A DNA stretch of 64,000 bases, from positions 1 to 64,000 of the IMG/VR virus record IMGVR_UViG_3300044699_000088. One strand, written 5' to 3'. Positions 37,278-63,691 of this stretch are shown here, piece by piece. The DNA comes from a virus. Within the stretch, counting starts at the first letter, position 1, and each line of letters opens with the position of its first letter. Position numbers and translations under genes: made by a program. A model generated the notes under the pieces. It saw only the letters and a program-made list of their open reading frames with translations, did no database searches and was not told the DNA's origin.

Positions 37278-40200
37278 ATGGCCGATCGCCGCAGACCATC
37301 GGAACACCCGACCTTCACGTCGCTCTACCAGCAGCAGTTCACGCCGGAAGGTCAGGCCTTTTACGTCTTGCGAAGCGATCCTACGCGGGCATATCTCGTA
37401 GACCCGACGACCCACAGCGGCGCGATCGAGTATCCCGTTGAATACGTCAACTGGCTCCTTCGTCCCGCTCCTCCAACAGCCGGCGACGTTCGCGGCGCCG
37501 TCACCGGGCGCGAGTCGCGGGAGATCGGCGGCCAAGGCCTCAATGGGCGCATCGGTGTCGCTTACGGGCAAGTGCGTATTGCGCCGAGCATCTTCTTTGG
37601 GCCGCGCAACTTCGCCGCGGGCGGAGCCCCTTACGTCAACGTCATCGGCGTCGGCTACGGACTCTCTCAGGGTCCGTGCGATTCCCTCGTGGATATCGTT
37701 TTCCCCGCACGGCAAAACGCTTGCGGCGATGGTGGCGTCGGGAGCCTGGCAGTACGAGTTTTTCCAGGGCCTGCTCTCGCCGCCGGCCGCGTCCGTGCAT
37801 TTCCTAAACGTGATTGCGCCAGGAGATGCAGGCGTGGCGGCGACATTCGAAAGGTATCCCGGCCTGTGCTATGTGGCCGCGACCCTCGTATGGGAAGCCG
37901 CCGCATGGGCTGGCATTCCCGGTGCGTTCCCCATCCCGCTCTTCATACTCAAGGGTCGGAAGGTGCGCAACTATACGTCGGGGCTTGACGTCTGGTCGGA
38001 CAACCCCGCCTGGTGTCTTGCCGATTACATCGTCTCGACGCAGTACGGAAGGGGAGCAACTGTCAACACGCAAAGCGTGATCGACGCCGCAACGTACTGC
38101 GATGAGACCTTTGTCAATACGGCGACCGGGCTCTCTGCCAAAAAGCACACGTTGAACTATTTCCTCCTTCGCGGCGCGAGCCACAAAGCCCACATCGACG
38201 CCATGCGTGCGCACTTCCGTTGCAATGTCATCGAGCGCGGCGGGGAAATGATCTTCGTCATCGACAAGGACAAATCCCCGGTGATGACGTTCAATGAGGC
38301 GGAAGCGGTGCCTATCTCCATCGAGCGTATGGGCGGGAGCGGCGTTCCGAATCAGGTCGTCGTCAAATTCCCCGATCCGCTCAACAACTATGAGCCGGTG
38401 CCGGAGTACGCGAGAACTGCCGCTGTCGATGCTGGCACGGCGATCACCAAGGAAGCGGACTACGAGCTCGAAGGTGTGAGCGACGGGGTTCACGCTGCGA
38501 GCGAGGCGTTTTATCTGCTCAATTCGCGGCTGAATAATCTCCGAGTCGTCTTGCGTGCCGTGCATCCCAAGGCCATGCAGCTCGAGCCGGGTGACGTGAT
38601 CGAATACACGACCGCGACGTTCGGGCTTGCGTCGTTTCTGCTTCGCGTGCTTCGTGTGACACGGGCCGCCGATGGAACGGCATGGACGATTGAGACATGC
38701 GGGCATGACCCGGCGGTCTACACGTTTCAGTCGCGAGCGATCGAGACGTATCCGATACCGGCCCTGCCGGACCCATTTGCCGTACCTTCGGCGCCGACGG
38801 CTCCATCTGGCGCATCAACGCTGACGATTGGCGACGGACTCACCGTGTATCCCAACAAGGTCGGCGTGACTTGGGATCATCCGGGATGGCCGTATGCCTT
38901 GATGTATGCGGTTACAGCGCAGACCGCGATTGAAGCTGAGTCAACAATTGCAGAAGTAGAGAGCGGACCGGTCTTCGTCAATGTCGAAACCCTACCTGTC
39001 ACGATCCGTGTCTATGCATTCCGGGCAATCAGTGGCGTCGTGAGTGCAGCATGCGCGGGCACGGTTGACCCGGTGACGATGTATGGCACAGCGGAATGGC
39101 CGCAAAACATAACGCTCATGCCCGAAGCCGATGGACGAGTCATGCTCGCCATTGTCAAGGCGCCACGGAGAACCCGCGCACTCTATGGCACCTCATATTG
39201 GACGCAAAGCGGCATCACGTCATTCGACGGAACCAAGATCAACGACGGAAATCTGGTTGTGGCGGCCGGTGTCATCAGCAACGGCGACACGCTCACGATT
39301 GACTTTGGCTTGGGCAATGCAAAGACAATTCGTGAGGTACGCGCCACATTCTCTTCCTTCACTGGAGCTGCGCTCGATAATCCAAATCCCATCGTAAGCC
39401 TGAAAACGTCGGCAGACGCGGTTACGTTCGGTTCGGATGTGATCATTGACGGTACGCAGTACATTGGTTTCGCGAAGGTCGGCGATGTCCCGTTCTCGAT
39501 CCACGTTCCGATCCCGGAAGTAGGGGTGGATCTGGGGCCACATCGAGCATGGCGATTCAAGTTTGCGACAACCGCGCTGCAGACCGCCTACACACTCTCT
39601 GAGTTTCAGATCTACGAGTTCGCGAGTGATGAATCCGACTTCATGCTCGGTTACAACATTTACGACATGGCAACAGGCACAGCGCGCTTTCATAAGTTCG
39701 TTGCCCAGGATCATGATTTTACAGTCTCGCCGATTGATGTCACCGCATTCACGCGGAATGAAATGACCTGGAGCAATTTCCGCGTTGCAGTTCGGGTATG
39801 CGGCGTGAGTTTGTCCAAGCTGCAAAGCAACAACCTCGACGCCTACTACGGGTTTGGCTATGGGGGTGCCAGCACGTCGAGTCAATTGGCATCGACGGCG
39901 GGCGCCGAGACGCTGCAAAACAAGACGCTAGATGTACCGGTCGTCGCGGACTTCACCAACGCGCAGCACAATCATCAGAGCGCAGCCGGTGGCGGCCTGC
40001 TCTCTGGTGATGGCATCTCGCCGACAACGGGCACGGGGGCAGTCGTGCGGGCAGCCTCGCCTCAGTTCACGCTCAACGTCGGCATTGGCACGCCGGCACA
40101 ATCGAAGATCGGCGAAATCATCGCTGGTGTTTTGGCTGCCGTGAGCGACGCGGCCGGACTCCAGGTTAGTCCAACATTTGGAGCCGGTGCGCAGGCTACC

Positions 40201-41145
40201 GCCTACGGAATCTCGACGGCAATGAATTCTGCTCCTGGTGTCTACACGATTGCCCATGTCATGGGAAACCGTGTTCATGATGGCTCCGTTGGAGCGGGCG
40301 CGACCTGGACGCAATTCACGTCTCTCTATATTGACGCACCCACGGCCGGGTCATCGATCAATCGGGCGATTCTCGTGGCTGGGGGAACGAGCGAGTTCGG
40401 TGGGCCCGTGCTCGTCCCTACTGCCGCCGTTGACACCAATACGACGCAAGCCGCGTCTACCGCCTTCGTGCTCGCACAAGCCGCGTCCGCGAATCCCCTC
40501 ATGAATGGCACGGCGGCGCCCGGAACCTCCACCCGCAATGCCCGCGGTGACCACGTGCATCCGACGGACACAAGCCGCGCGCCGATCGCCTCGCCAGCAT
40601 TCACCGGCACGACGATGTCCATCACGAGTACTGCGAGCGTGCGCTACACGCTTACAGGCGCAACGGCAAGCGGAGACTCTGACATCCGGTTCATCAATTC
40701 TGCCGCCACCGTTCCTTACGATTGGTTGATTCAAGCGCTCCAGGGCGGCACATTACGAATCTACGACAACGCAGGCGGATCGGTCGGCGAGCGGTTCACC
40801 ATCGACCAAGCGGGCCTTGTGGGAATCAATCAGGCGATCCCGCTCAAGAGGCTCGACGTGACTGGCGATATTGCTGTCAACACCGCCGGGAATGGGCTGT
40901 ACGTCAAGGAAGGAACCAACGCCACGATGGGAGTGGCCGTACTCGTAACGGGGGTCAAGGTCGTCTCGACGACAAAGGTAACCGCGAACAGCAGAATCTT
41001 CCTGACGGTCCAAGTCCTCGGGACTGTCGCAGCGCCGAAGGCAATCGCCGTGACCGCGCGGACTGCTGGCACGAGCTTCACGATCACGAGCTCCGACGCG
41101 ACGGACACCAGCTCTATCGGCTGGCTCATTATCGAGCCCTACTAG
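37278..41145 (+). pseudogene. Tail tip attachment / receptor-binding protein (gpJ-like), one frameshift
   Basis: The first 140 codons (VYGQV-like text VAYGQVRIAPSIFFGP, then GYGLSQGPCDSLVDIVF) continue in another frame as HGKTLAAMVASGAWQYEFFQ after one extra base in TTTTCCCC near 37700. The repaired protein has about 1288 residues. The N-terminal third is a tip hub (DNPAWCLADYIVSTQYGRG, RCNVIERGGEMIFVIDKDKS). The middle has fibronectin-like and discoidin-like domains, and the C-terminus has collagen/fibre text (STRNARGDHVHPTDTSRAPI) ending SIGWLIIEPY. It likely contacts the host receptor. Confidence 0.85.
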
Positions 41146-58088: not shown

Positions 58089-59234
58089 CTAGTTCACTTC
58101 GATTGCCTTCGCCGCGCGCTCGATGGCTTGTCCGTCGAGCCGCAGATAGTGCTTGCGCAGAATCTTCGCCCCCTCGGCCGGCCGGTCTGCCACTGGATGA
58201 CTAAACACGTGACCGGTCATCTGCGCGATTTCCGCTTCCGAGAGCCCCGCTTGCAAGAGCCGCGTGGCGATCGTCGCGCGACAGTCGCGCCACTGGAAGT
58301 CCTTGATGTGCGCCGCACGCTTGGCTGCGGCGAAATCGTCGAGGATCTGCCACAGGCTCATGTCAGCCAGAATGAGCCCTCCATGCGCAGCGCGCGGTTC
58401 GAGAATCGTCCGGACCGTTGGCGACATAGCGATAATGCGCCCCTTCTTCGCCTTGGTGATCTCCCATGGCAAGCGGAGGACGCCTGCTTCAAAATCGCAA
58501 TATTCCGCATCGAGCTTCAGGAGCTCACCCTGGCGCATACCCGTGTGCAGGGCAAGGATGAATGCTTCACGAGTGCGCGCCGCGTAAACCTTTAGCATGG
58601 CTGCCTGCTCCTTGGCTGAGAGCACGCGAGTTCGCGGGGTTTCCGCCTTGAGCTGCACGATCGAATTTCCTCGCCTGGCTCGAGTCGGGCTCTTCGCGAT
58701 GAGGTTCATTTCTACGGCACGCGAAAAGATGCATACGAGCACAGCCATCTCACGATTCACTGTCGCGATAGACCGCGGCCCCGACCCTTCGGTGATCTTA
58801 GAGCCGCCGTGTCGTTTCGGAGCGACTAATCGGGCATCGCGCAGCGCTAGGAGCTCGGGGAACGTGATGCTCGTCAGCAGGCGCGGACCAAGCGCCGGGA
58901 TGAGCACATTATTAATGATGTTCCGCGTGAGCTGCGGGCGAGCGAGGCCGCGAAGTTTGACCCCGTTTTGATAGACCGGCTCGACGCAGCAATGGGTCGC
59001 GTAGTCGCGGGCCATCTCCGCAAACGTGGTGATTGTTGGTCCGGTCGCGGCGCTTGCCTTTTCGCGGTTCGCTTCATCGACGAGGTCACGAAGAAGGTCG
59101 CTGGCCGCTGCCTTGGTGTCGCTCTCCTTCGGTTGGCGCCGCAGTTCGTGCTTCTTGCCGTTTGCGTCGGTGTACGAGACTCGAGCTACCCACTTGCCCG
59201 ATATTTCTTGACGTAGCCGATTGGTTTGTTAGCC
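58089..59234 (-). pseudogene. int: Tyrosine integrase, one frameshift
   Basis: The N-terminal arm-binding domain (MANKPIGYVKK, then GKWVARVSYTDANGKKHEL) and the rest are separated by a missing A near 59203; restoring it gives about 382 residues. The catalytic domain has GMRQGELLKL (Arg I), a Lys region (EITKAKKGR), WRDCRATIATRLLQAGLSEA (box II), MTGHVFS (His III) and LRKHYLRLDG (Tyr nucleophile). In box II the usual His of HxxR is Arg (RDCR). It would recombine the tRNA-Leu site directly upstream. Confidence 0.88.
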
Positions 59235-59342
59235 ATGTTTTTGTACCGCTATTGTACCGCTATGAGCTGCCATCCTCTACTTGTTGCGTCTCGTTTTGTC
59301 TCACATTTGCTATGTTTTCTTGAAATTGCTCTCTCAGATACA

Positions 59343-59403
59343 GCAGACTCAAAATCTGCCGGGGTTAACCCCCATGTCGGTTCGAGTCCGACCTCGGGCA
59401 CCA
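59343..59403 (+). other. Attachment site: 3' part of tRNA-Leu(CAA)
   Basis: The sequence GCAGACTCAAAATCTGC is a complete anticodon stem-loop with anticodon CAA. A variable arm follows, then the T arm (GTCGG TTCGAGT CCGAC, 59376-59392), the 3' acceptor strand CTCGGGC, the discriminator A and CCA. The 5' acceptor strand (expected GCCCGAG) and D arm are absent upstream, so this is not a full tRNA. It is the att core used by the integrase: attP or the int-proximal prophage junction. Confidence 0.85.
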
Positions 59404-59506
59404 ACAAAACAAAGGACTTAGCGGGATTTGTTGGGCAAAAAAAGACAAAAAGTTATTTACGGTTGTACCGCTTATTGTACCGGGTTGCGCCGAATCGTGA
59501 GGGTGG

Positions 59507-60538: not shown

Positions 60539-60557
60539 CCCCTCCGGGCGGGAACTA
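60539..60557 (-). repeat. Repeated stop/tail element, copy 2
   Basis: CCCCTCCGGGCGGGAACTA, read on the minus strand, is a TAG stop followed by GTTCCCGCCCGGAGGGG. The identical element at 60661-60679 ends the first peptide gene. Two peptide ORFs thus share both the C-terminal codons and the bases after the stop, suggesting tandem duplication. Confidence 0.6.
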
Positions 60558-60619
60558 GGGTTTGGGGATGATGACATCGGAGCCGGTGGACTTCGGGTGA
60601 AGCGTCTTATTGCATTCAC
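60555..60619 (-). pseudogene. Second peptide ORF (about 21 residues), frameshifted
   Basis: A GTG at 60619, six bases after AGGAGG, begins VNAIRRFT. One base shift then leads into PKSTGSDVIIPKP and a stop at 60555. The end VIIPKP closely resembles VVIPRP of the peptide gene upstream. No signal sequence is present. It may be a degenerate duplicate or a cytoplasmic relative. Confidence 0.4.
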
Positions 60620-60660
60620 AAATCCTCCTGAGGGAAAGAAGGAGGGGGCGAAGACGCGAC

Positions 60661-60679
60661 CCCCTCCGGGCGGGAACTA
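60661..60679 (-). repeat. Repeated stop/tail element, copy 1
   Basis: Identical 19 bases to the element at 60539-60557, in the same orientation, carrying the stop codon of the secreted peptide gene. Confidence 0.6.
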
Positions 60680-60844
60680 AGGACGGGGAATGACCACTCC
60701 CTCGAGAGCCTGCACCACTCTCAGTATTGTTCGCACGATAAGTGATTCTGATGTGCGCGTCGGGCGGGTTCGTGTTGAGGCCGAGACTGATGGTGCTAAT
60801 ACTACTGTTAGCAAAAATAGGGACACTAAGATGACGCGTTTCAT
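60677..60844 (-). CDS. Small secreted peptide precursor
   Basis: A 55-codon gene with an excellent ribosome site (AGGAGG, nine bases upstream). It encodes a classical signal peptide (MKRVILVSLFLLTVVLAPSV, then SAS), a basic Thr/Arg linker, and a C-terminus ending LEGVVIPRP. It lies 88 bases after the TPR gene in the same direction, exactly where Phr or AimP peptides lie relative to Rap or AimR. Export and processing to a short C-terminal peptide are inferred. Confidence 0.65.
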   Translation of the reverse strand: MKRVILVSLFLLTVVLAPSVSASTRTRPTRTSESLIVRTILRVVQALEGVVIPRP

Positions 60845-60932
60845 GTTTTCTCCTCCTGTAACTCAGCGGATTGCTGAGAACTTGGGAAGAGCGCCCTTCT
60901 TGTAGTTAGGAGTGTTTGAATTGAGCATTTCC

Positions 60933-62254
60933 CTACCCGTGTTTTCGTAACGGGACAAACATCGCCGCTGGATACAGGGCAGAAATAGAAATGAAATCTT
61001 TGACGTGGCGAACCATTTCGGAATCAAGCACTCCATCTCTAGCATCTCGTCGCAGATGAGCCAGCGCTATTGCGCACTCGTTTGATAGCTGAGCTGCCTG
61101 CGCGCGAGTAACAACACATCTGGCTCGATCAATCGCTTCTTCATTCGAGACGCCGAAGTGATCCAGTAAAACTTCGATGATGTCAAGACAAACCTGGATC
61201 TCGTCTCGAGCCATCAGCAGATCCTTAAATTCGTCCTCAACTTCTCGTAGTGTTTCGAGTCCTTCGTCCACACTGCCTTTCGCAACCTGCATCAAGCCGA
61301 TGCTCCAAGTAACTTTGATGATTTCCGTTGTCATGTTGCATCGCGTGAAGAGCAATTTCGCCCTAGCCCAAAACTCCAGCGCCTCGTCGTATGCTTGTTC
61401 CTTCATCAAACATTGCCCGGCGTTGTAGTAGCACGCCGCTTCCATCTCTCGATCACCAGATTCCTTCATTTCGCTCGTCAATTCGACAAACTGCTGGCGC
61501 GCGGCAAGAATCGACCGGCTCGATAGTCGATCAAAGCGAGAACCATGCGTGCATCGATGACGTGCTTGGTGTCTCCCCATGTGCGAAAAACTTCGATAGC
61601 GTCTTCTATTAATTGGATGGCTTCAGCGGATCGGCCCATGACCTGGAGCACATTCGCACGGGCATAACCAAGAATGGCGTTTTGCAAGTCGGCATCTGGC
61701 CATGGCCCGATAGCACTCTCGGCGTTATACAGAGCGCCAAGGGCTTCCGCGTGTTCGCCGAGTCCGACATAGGCTGATGAGAGCTTGCGGTATGCGAGCG
61801 CTTCCAGTCGGTCGCGCTCCTCGGTATCCTTCAGTGCGCGTGTGATATCAATGGCCAATTCTGCCAACTCTCTAGCGCGCGATGGTTGAGAGTAGAAGGC
61901 TTGCTCGGCTCGGTTTAAGATCGCGCCACCGACGGCTGCTGTCTGAAATCGCTGGTCAAGAGAGACAATGTAGTGCCATCGCGCGGGGGCTGATCGCAGG
62001 AGCTCGTCGACCAACTCGTCTACGCCCACCTGTTCTCGCTCCATTCGATCGGCGAGCACGCGAATTATTCGGATCGTCTCGTCTGGCGTTGTTGGTCCAT
62101 TGGGCAATTGCCGTTTACGCTTTCGGTCACCGAGTTTAACCACACGTAGGGCACAGCTCGGGCAGGCTAGGAGATGATCCTCTGCGCGCTTCTCCTCCGT
62201 CTGGCTCAATTCTCGGAGAGCGTAGCGGGCGATCAAATCCCAATTGCATTTCAT
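60933..62254 (-). pseudogene. zf-HC2 / TPR repeat protein, one frameshift
   Basis: The N-terminus is an anti-sigma-like zinc finger (RYALRELSQTEEKRAEDHL, then LACPSC: the H-x3-C-x2-C set). The rest is TPR helices (EALAYRKLSSAYVGLGEHAE, YNAGQCLMKEQAYDEALEFW, IGLMQVAKGSVDEGLETLRE). A missing G near 61503 breaks the frame; restored length is about 440 residues. The gene starts 21 bases after the XRE gene and is probably cotranscribed. TPR proteins of this kind serve as peptide receptors in Rap/AimR/PlcR systems; here that is inference. Confidence 0.75.
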
Positions 62255-62275
62255 GGAGGAAGCGACCTTCCCGGC

Positions 62276-63166
62276 TTACTTGCGACTCGGGTTCTGGGGG
62301 TTATCGGTGAGGGCCAGCATCGGAGTCCGGTTGAATGCGATGAGGAGGGTGTCAATCGTGTTTTGGAGGGTATCGATGCTGTTTTGTGGAAACTGCGCCC
62401 TGCCGGCGAGTCCTTTGATAATTCTTTCAATGTCCGTAGGCTTGAATCCAACCTCGGTGCCTACGGCGCTTGTGTCCTTGCCGCTGCGCTCCGTCCACAA
62501 CGGTGGTTTTCGCGTATCAGTACCGAGTCGATGAAGCATATTGACGAGCATCCGGGCGTTAACCGCGAGTGCCGCGATGATCTCTTCGCGCATCGCTCCG
62601 CTGACCCCGGAGAGAACCGCCAAAACATCCCTGAACTCGTCCGAGACAGGGTTTGCTCCGCTGTTTGGCAAGAGGTCGCCGATCGGTTCGTTTACGTGGT
62701 CGGCCAATCTTTGCAGCTCGTCCAGCGAGGGGTCTACTACATCACTTAGAACCAAATGCAGCATGTCGGGCTGTTCGTAGCCCATCACTTGTGCGGCTTC
62801 GGCCATAGACAACCCGTGACGCCGCAGCGCCCTAGCTATGTTACCGCCGTGCCGACGCTTAGATAGATTCGAAGGTGGCCTGCTCATGGATGGGCTCGGC
62901 ACCTCATGCGTTGTCGTTGACAGCAAGATCTCCAGAGGAACGTTTAGCGCTTGGGCAAGCGCAGAAGTGGTTTTAAGGTCGGGCGAGCTTACACCCCGCT
63001 CGATGTTGCTAAGCGTCTGATAGTGAATGCCGGCATTCCGGGAAAGCGTACGCTGCGACAAGCCGGCGGCTAGCCTCAGGCGGCGCACGTTATCGCCAAC
63101 TGTGGAAGCATCCTGCACCTCGGCCTGGCCATCGACGCCATCTTGAACACGGTCTCCCATACTCAT
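62276..63166 (-). CDS. XRE-family regulator with two HTH units
   Basis: The 296-residue protein starts at 63166 (MSMGDRVQDGVDGQAEVQDA). Residues 21-80 form an HTH_3 (VRRLRLAAGLSQRTLSRNAG, LSNIERGVSSPDLKTTSALA). A second HTH-like unit follows near residues 115-165 (LRRHGLSMAEAAQVMGYEQP, LVLSDVVDPSLDELQRLADH). The C-terminal third lacks a peptidase motif. Transcribed leftwards and divergent from early genes, it fits a lysogeny repressor or switch regulator. A longer start at 63277 is open but looks non-coding. Confidence 0.75.
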   Translation of the reverse strand: MSMGDRVQDGVDGQAEVQDASTVGDNVRRLRLAAGLSQRTLSRNAGIHYQTLSNIERGVSSPDLKTTSALAQALNVPLEILLSTTTHEVPSPSMSRPPSNLSKRRHGGNIARALRRHGLSMAEAAQVMGYEQPDMLHLVLSDVVDPSLDELQRLADHVNEPIGDLLPNSGANPVSDEFRDVLAVLSGVSGAMREEIIAALAVNARMLVNMLHRLGTDTRKPPLWTERSGKDTSAVGTEVGFKPTDIERIIKGLAGRAQFPQNSIDTLQNTIDTLLIAFNRTPMLALTDNPQNPSRK

Positions 63167-63422: not shown

Positions 63423-63691
63423 GTGAAAGCGAACAAAGTCGTTTCTCCCCTCAAGGTCTGCCGGGAATACCTTGCCGAACGGAACATCTCAAAGACAAGC
63501 CAGCGCAAAAGTTCCCGCGGATGCTCTTTTATTCGTTTCGTAACCCGAGGCGCTACGACCGCCACCGGCTAAGTCAGAAGAATCTGAAGCGGTTGGCTGA
63601 AATGCTCCGCCTCGACGTCCGCCTCGTCGAGCTCGACTACGTATCCCGCGGCGGGATCATCGCTCGCCCGCGTCGGAGATCGCCCAAATGA
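63423..63691 (+). pseudogene. Early gene downstream of the switch, frameshifted
   Basis: The GTG frame reads VKANKVVSPLKVCREYLAER. After one indel near 63505 the text moves to MLFYSFRNPRRYDRHRLSQK and LKRLAEMLRLDVRLVELDYV, ending at 63691. Basic and helical; a small DNA-binding protein is possible. A 20-codon frame (MKSRSSTTPRIWG) overlaps its stop. Confidence 0.45.

Follow-up and report, generated by a model that had tools for sequence, protein, structure and literature searches.

A zf-HC2/TPR protein and a short exported peptide precursor, paired in Acidobacteriota and in a phage immunity region, as a candidate peptide-signalling module

Introduction

Peptide signalling systems of the RRNPPA family (Rap–Phr, NprR–NprX and PlcR–PapR) combine a cytoplasmic tetratricopeptide repeat (TPR) protein with an adjacent gene for a short exported precursor whose C-terminal segment is conserved (PMC9765709, PMC10075063). 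They are found as many paralogous pairs per genome, with duplicated precursors, and also on phages, as in the case of Rap of phi3T (PMC11343458), and the work on them has been centred on Firmicutes (PMC10075063, PMC9765709, PMC11343458). In the arbitrium system of Bacillus phages (AimR–AimP) a TPR protein and a short exported peptide are encoded beside the phage lysogeny genes. Here we describe a locus of similar composition in a 64,000 nt stretch of viral DNA (positions 1 to 64,000 of IMG/VR record IMGVR_UViG_3300044699_000088; the whole stretch is referred to as the window), in which genes for an XRE-family regulator, a protein with a zf-HC2 zinc finger and TPRs (the zf-HC2/TPR protein) and a 55-residue peptide precursor lie in a row on the minus strand, and we compare it with related loci in Acidobacteriota.

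The module resembles the RRNPPA systems in having a multi-repeat TPR protein and, adjoining it, a short exported precursor with a conserved C-terminus, and the paralogous pairs, duplicated precursors and phage-borne copy are further points of likeness. It differs in belonging to Acidobacteriota rather than Firmicutes, and in that the N-terminal helix–turn–helix (HTH) or Rap-type helical domain, which is absent from the phage TPR protein, gives way to a zf-HC2 finger of anti-sigma type, with an extracytoplasmic function (ECF) sigma factor as partner and a sigma-type promoter of its own; a sequence relationship between the two is established only at the generic TPR level. Unlike arbitrium, the phage locus has a separate XRE protein, a zinc finger and a host-type sigma promoter on the peptide gene, and no AimX-like element was identified; AimR was not among the 60 best Protein Data Bank (PDB) profile matches listed for the TPR protein, and no PHROG family matches that protein. 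The third point of comparison is provided by ECF sigma factors with soluble ZAS anti-sigma factors, and by ECF42-type factors with TPR extensions, which, as described in PMC8999054 and PMC8103513, show an ECF sigma factor together with a ZAS finger and a role for TPRs in ECF regulation. In the module described here, by contrast, a single separate protein contains both TPRs and finger, and the constant third partner is a gene for a secreted peptide. The HxxxCxxC finger of ZAS anti-sigma factors is present in the phage TPR protein (zf-HC2 over the cut-off), but an adjoining ECF sigma gene is seen only in the hosts, the phage having an XRE gene instead and its record no Sigma70_r2 match. In the available portions of the same ECF reviews TPR extensions and ZAS domains come up, but a sigma/TPR/peptide module of this kind does not (PMC8999054, PMC8103513), and a literature search on such modules, on ECF regulation and on peptide communication among phages of Gram-negative bacteria that did not extend to most subscription papers or to any bioRxiv preprints returned no TPR-receptor/peptide signalling in Acidobacteriota and none acting via a sigma/anti-sigma pair.

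Results

In the phage, the zf-HC2/TPR gene (start at 62254, TAG stop at 60933) is followed after 88 bases by an open reading frame (ORF; 60677–60844) with an AGGAGG ribosome site and a predicted signal peptide, encoding a putative exported precursor of 55 residues that ends LEGVVIPRP. A first-pass annotation of the window had proposed the order XRE gene, 21-base gap, zf-HC2/TPR gene, 88-base gap, precursor, and coordinates and Pfam matches agree with it. It had also treated as decisive whether homologous TPR genes are followed by a peptide ORF. Relatives of the phage terminase served solely as a route to Acidobacteriota genomes, and 396 of these were searched for zf-HC2/TPR homologues. Full-length homologues were found in one class of the phylum (E to 5.3e-29), and a profile then gave matches at E ≤ 1e-12 in 96 of the 149 genomes of that class, several genomes having 11 or more. 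The survey of neighbourhoods covered 91 distinct host TPR loci, falling into near, mid and distant clades, and a peptide was scored where an ORF of 40–110 residues had a ribosome site and its product a basic N-terminus, together with a hydrophobic core and a site of signal-peptidase type. Such an ORF lies no more than 300 bp downstream of the TPR gene in 30 of the 35 near homologues with enough flank, compared with 3.0% of random positions, as that annotation had anticipated. Control ORF ends gave 27 such peptides in 981 cases, many of the 27 being the module's own peptides at upstream or divergent loci.

Outside the near clade the arrangement is more varied. Divergent peptides with the ends SWPKP or SWPVP are present at two loci of the mid clade (L134 and L136), and at distant-clade loci the peptide is found upstream instead and is often of GxxMDPNG type. 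A motif-bearing upstream or divergent peptide is present at 17 of the 48 mid and distant loci. Eight distant-clade loci (L147, L148, L150, L152, L155, L082, L083 and L084) carry this second class of small secreted peptides upstream of the zf-HC2/TPR gene, with GxxMDPNG often near the C-terminus and sometimes repeated; these peptides possibly represent a sister signalling family.

The end of the precursor is its most constrained part. Proline occupies position −3 in 30 of 39 precursors (that of the phage included; background 9%) and position −1 is proline or glycine in 31 of the 39. The tails are either PxP, where x is K, R, H or I (for example VIPRP, IIIPRP and TPPKP), or PPG-like, and the phage tail (VIPRP) is of the PxP kind. 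The segment between signal peptide and tail forms a predicted amphipathic helix (mean z of 2.4 versus shuffles) which is mostly basic, with a mean net charge of +1.5. The co-variation of tail and receptor foreseen in the first-pass annotation was also observed: the type of tail differs by receptor clade, the distribution of PxP on the receptor tree requiring three changes compared with 11.9 after shuffling (0 of 500 shuffles were as low). This clustering supports, but does not prove, recognition of the tail by the receptor. We regard the TPR protein–peptide pairing as secure, and the two very probably act together.

Tandem full copies of the peptide gene occur at host loci L076 (two), L095 (three, ending DDIIIPRP, DDIVIPRP and DDIIIPRP) and L128 (two), which makes a truncated second copy in the phage understandable. 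This copy (60539–60625, minus strand) has an AGGAGG and an open stretch ending SDVIIPKP before a stop codon at 60555–60557. A 19-base element had been said to be repeated here, and the repeat is real but longer, being 33 nt at 85% identity: the first copy (60661–60693) takes in the precursor end (IPRP), the stop codon and the GC-rich stretch after it, and the second (60539–60571) lies within the truncated peptide copy. The idea that the latter is a second small gene had to be given up, as it has no in-frame ATG, GTG or TTG and the copies are only 122 nt apart, too short for a full precursor.

The first-pass annotation had taken the phage TPR protein to be the product of a single ORF. It is read instead in two overlapping frames on the minus strand, one (61478–62254) with Pfam matches to zf-HC2 (3e-5, over the cut-off) and TPR_12 (2e-7) and with homologues in Acidobacteriota, the other (60933–61580) identified from the ORF reading, Pfam and the homologue alignment, and the two are joined by a one-base correction near 61509–61515. 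As homologues align ungapped through the junction, the split reflects a frameshift (a mutation or an assembly error) and not two genes; a programmed frameshift was ruled out, there being no slippery sequence at the junction. The N-terminus is the zf-HC2 finger, which is of ZAS type (H-x3-C-x2-C, a motif present across the homologues), and Pfam gives no match to an HTH family. In a profile search against the PDB the protein matched the peptide-binding RapJ, RapI, RapF, Rap3T and NprR alongside other TPR proteins, among them designed TPRs, LGN and kinesin light chain. Single-sequence models of both halves were all-helical, with mean pLDDT of 61–64 and values of 63 for the first frame and 61 for the second, a middling confidence that supports only the description 'all-helical TPR'. 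With the second half as the query, Foldseek placed Rap proteins among the top matches, including Rap of phi3T with its pheromone, although the matches as a whole reached no lower than E 0.007. As modelled, the fold suits peptide binding; it does not fix the identity of the ligand.

Upstream of the host TPR genes the neighbours checked by Pfam are ECF-type sigma factors (Sigma70_r2 and Sigma70_r4), and by profile a sigma gene is present at 31 of 37 near, 14 of 18 mid and 15 of 33 distant loci. The six near loci that have no sigma gene (L067, L076, L090, L095, L097 and L117) form one supported clade, in which the downstream peptide is kept at three loci and absent from one, while two have too little flank. 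The TPR–peptide pair thus persists without the sigma factor and is therefore the more durable unit. ZAS fingers have a known anti-sigma role. With an H-x3-C-x2-C finger encoded beside a sigma gene, the host TPR protein is, by analogy, most simply regarded as an anti-sigma factor with a TPR sensor, and it probably is one.

The phage slot that corresponds to the host ECF sigma gene is filled by the XRE gene (62276–63166, longest start 63277, minus strand), whose product has two HTH matches in Pfam (HTH_3 at 6e-19 and a second HTH) and matches PHROG transcriptional repressor and regulator families to 6e-18. No relative of this XRE protein is encoded beside the TPR gene at any of the 91 host loci; its relatives in host genomes show similarity at the HTH level only and none adjoins a TPR gene. 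The source record is a 65,413-base IMG/VR entry with terminase, portal, capsid, tape measure and tail genes, among which a tail J-like protein (37438–41145) has a C-terminal K1-lyase domain. The leftward module sits between the integrase gene (58089–59015) and rightward genes that start at about 63.4 kb, and the XRE gene is in the position of a phage repressor, with the rightward early genes beginning on its far side. The XRE/TPR/peptide block therefore occupies the usual position of a phage immunity region. Two features of the flanks may be mentioned. Two overlapping rightward ORFs at 63423–63691, without a Pfam match, have the appearance of a single small Cro-like protein broken by a frameshift, possibly the second indel in the contig. 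Beside the integrase gene (59340–59420) there are short frames (VPEVGLEPT and SVRVRPRAPT) of the sort usually seen where a tRNA gene has its 3′ end, which suggest a tRNA-type attachment site, although no whole tRNA is predicted.

The receptor of the phage is at most 28% identical to those of the hosts. It groups with the PxP-tail receptors of L105, L068 and L070 (support 94/95) on a long branch (1.76), and its exact placement is unsure; a larger tree puts it among the peptide-bearing loci without resolving its position there. No close relatives of the TPR protein, the XRE protein or the peptide were found in viral contigs, phages or plasmids, and an initial scan in which the fused TPR protein was run against genome contigs gave no relatives. 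Capture of the module by a phage is a single case.

Two elements in the gap between TPR and peptide genes had escaped the first-pass annotation, namely a promoter-like element of 30 bp and a leader able to pair with the ribosome site. At the host loci this gap carries GGTAGGG-N16-CACTCC. A single exact GGGTAGGG-N16-CACTCC is present in the window, immediately in front of the peptide gene (60909–60938, minus strand) and with the TPR stop codon inside its first box, whereas shuffled windows have 0.0 exact and 0.45 one-mismatch occurrences. Of 34 host peptide genes, 13 are preceded by the exact motif, and nearly all 13 belong to the PxP clade (about 1.5% of random 200 nt stretches have it at one mismatch or fewer), and at other host loci it stands before the sigma/TPR operon. 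Counts of the N16 form reach 32 in G289, 26 in G404, 25 in G257, 19 in G405, 18 in G409, 14 in G411 and 13 in G407 (0–1 for the reversed pattern). The N17 form adds further copies, the two together giving up to 40 per genome, and seven near-clade genomes (G399, G401, G402, G403, G406, G233 and G410) have 2–10 copies of both forms combined. Distant-clade and module-less genomes are at background (0–3), and the two basal genomes G070 and G195 have 0–1. The N16/17 motif is thus a genome-wide promoter-like element confined to genomes with the near module. The genes behind it, read by eye, encode secreted, SCO1-like, cytochrome-type, AidA/PixA inclusion-body-like and small conserved proteins. In its behaviour the motif resembles a promoter for a lineage-specific alternative sigma factor, which is likely to be one of the TPR-linked sigma factors. 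We found no published description of the GGTAGGG-N16/17-CACTCC motif.

Some individual occurrences of the motif deserve mention. At L172 (about 1.5 kb) the gene behind it encodes a 176-residue protein that contains repeats of the kind TT...GEE and looks like a repetitive RiPP-type precursor, and in several genomes two short conserved protein families (MKLV...IETLALS...LDYL and MTAVHLPxSERVLD) are repeatedly encoded immediately after the promoter (L192, L193, L196, L206 and L210). Among viral contigs, one match to the pattern (L217) was dismissed as chance, lying inside a terminase gene on the other strand, and four more are not accompanied by a TPR/peptide module, two of them being on one 90-kb contig that has Acidobacteriota-like promoters. 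A 90.6-kb 'viral' contig (IMGVR_UViG_3300005842_000485; L226 and L228) has two Acidobacteriota promoter motifs, one of which precedes a gene for a nuclease-like protein with a signal peptide, and may represent part of a chromosome or a prophage from the same group of hosts.

The leader of the phage peptide gene (60850–60891, minus strand) contains CTCTTCC (60891–60885), which RNA folding predicts can pair with the ribosome site GGAGGAG (60856–60850) so as to enclose an inner hairpin (CTCAGC-AATCC-GCTGAG, 60878–60862), with a folding energy of −20.5 kcal/mol (z of −2.6). Over 35 leaders the mean fold z is −2.0, and most have a GCCCTCC/GGAGGGT-type stem over the ribosome site together with an inner hairpin. 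The outer stem has no covariation support, and the variable inner hairpin aligned too poorly to count. As the outer stem is nearly invariant and without covariation we do not claim an RNA switch, and control of translation through the predicted leader fold is a possibility only.

Discussion

The view of the first-pass annotation that a temperate-phage immunity region holds a TPR protein with a short exported peptide, most constrained at its C-terminus and distinct from arbitrium, is supported by these results. By analogy it would most likely be a peptide/TPR signalling unit, Rap–Phr-like in its logic though not necessarily a member of the RRNPPA family, that was captured into the phage immunity region. 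In the scheme that we consider, the precursor would be exported through its signal peptide and cut to a fragment bearing the conserved C-terminal tail (VIPRP in the phage), which would re-enter cells and bind the TPR protein. In the host, binding would free the ECF sigma factor from the TPR anti-sigma protein, and the freed factor would transcribe its own operon, the peptide gene and its regulon through GGTAGGG-N16-CACTCC, giving positive feedback. In the phage, where a repressor-like XRE gene stands in the sigma slot and the peptide gene appears to retain a sigma-type promoter, the absence of a sigma factor of its own means that the phage would depend on that of the host, and its repressor region would thereby be coupled to the peptide/sigma state of the host. 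Export, maturation, re-import, binding, sigma release and the effect on lysogeny are steps that we infer, as are maturation to IP(R/K)P and the sensing of density, both proposed in the first-pass annotation. We put the chances of the full signalling mechanism at about even. Given the frameshift, and a module seen in one phage only, control of lysogeny by the phage copy is the step of which we are least certain.

Several observations weigh against this scheme. The TPR gene of the phage is frameshifted, so the copy may be dead or mis-assembled, and scans of the viral collection did not yield a second phage with a TPR/peptide module. In the profile comparison Rap is equalled or outscored by designed TPRs, LGN and kinesin light chain, and the fold search with the C-terminal half gave no match at E ≤ 0.001. 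Every comparison made here draws on linkage and common descent, and as receptor and peptide are co-inherited the clustering of tails is by itself no proof of contact. The regulon of the motif is broad, and the assignment of a particular sigma factor to it stays an inference. Finally, the mature region, being mostly a cationic amphipathic helix, also fits a membrane-active peptide.

This last point leads to the main rival explanation, that what is secreted is a cationic amphipathic effector (antimicrobial or membrane-active), with the sigma factor and TPR protein serving only to regulate production of this peptide. The significant helix and the net positive charge speak for it, as do the position of the peptide gene at the end of the operon and its tandem copies, but the strongest constraint falls on the last residues and not on the helix, the type of tail tracks the receptor clade, the TPR–peptide pair persists without the sigma factor and some precursors are anionic (L081, L080 and L125), so that we regard an effector as unlikely. 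The signal peptide with a C-terminal PPG or a proline before the stop codon, and a leader able to pair with the ribosome site, would also be expected if the proline motifs were ribosome-arrest signals of a secretion-monitoring leader peptide. However, PKP, PRP and PHP are not classic strong arrest motifs, and no close same-strand gene follows the peptide in the window (the next is that of the integrase), leaving nothing obvious to regulate; we give this explanation hardly any credence.

The remaining alternatives concern the phage copy. It may be that the phage turns the module on its host, the zf-HC2/TPR protein titrating a host ECF sigma factor or the peptide mimicking a host signal, thereby altering host behaviour rather than the timing of lysogeny. 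The zinc ligands are kept although the phage has no sigma factor, its peptide gene has a host-type promoter and the tail VVIPRP is near the host tail IIIPRP (L095); against this, the location beside a repressor-like XRE gene in the immunity region favours a decision of the phage's own, and receptor identity to the hosts is low, which makes such manipulation distinctly improbable. Slightly less probable again is that the TPR and peptide genes are captured host cargo in decay with no present function, as the frameshift, the truncated second peptide copy and the long terminal branch might suggest, because despite the low overall identity the promoter is still exact, the ribosome site strong, the signal peptide present and the tail typical of the family. 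We return, then, to the reading of the locus as a phage-borne version of a cellular peptide-signalling module, in which a peptide and its TPR receptor are joined to a sigma-type promoter, and consider that the evidence leaves it evenly poised.

A broader proposal, to which we lean a little less, is that PxP and PPG peptides would form a widespread, hitherto undescribed family in the Gram-negative Acidobacteriota that switches zf-HC2/TPR anti-sigma receptors, and through them ECF sigma factors and a large regulon, and that a temperate phage captured the module, putting a repressor in place of the sigma factor and letting a host sigma factor drive the peptide, so as to listen to or speak into host communication at the choice between lysis and lysogeny. 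This would mean peptide communication in bacteria without a known system of the kind. The paralogous pairs, as many as about a dozen in a genome, together with their common promoter and the defined candidate peptides would open such communication to direct testing with synthetic peptides in a dominant, poorly cultured soil phylum, and the phage copy would extend peptide-informed phage decisions beyond the phages of Bacillus.

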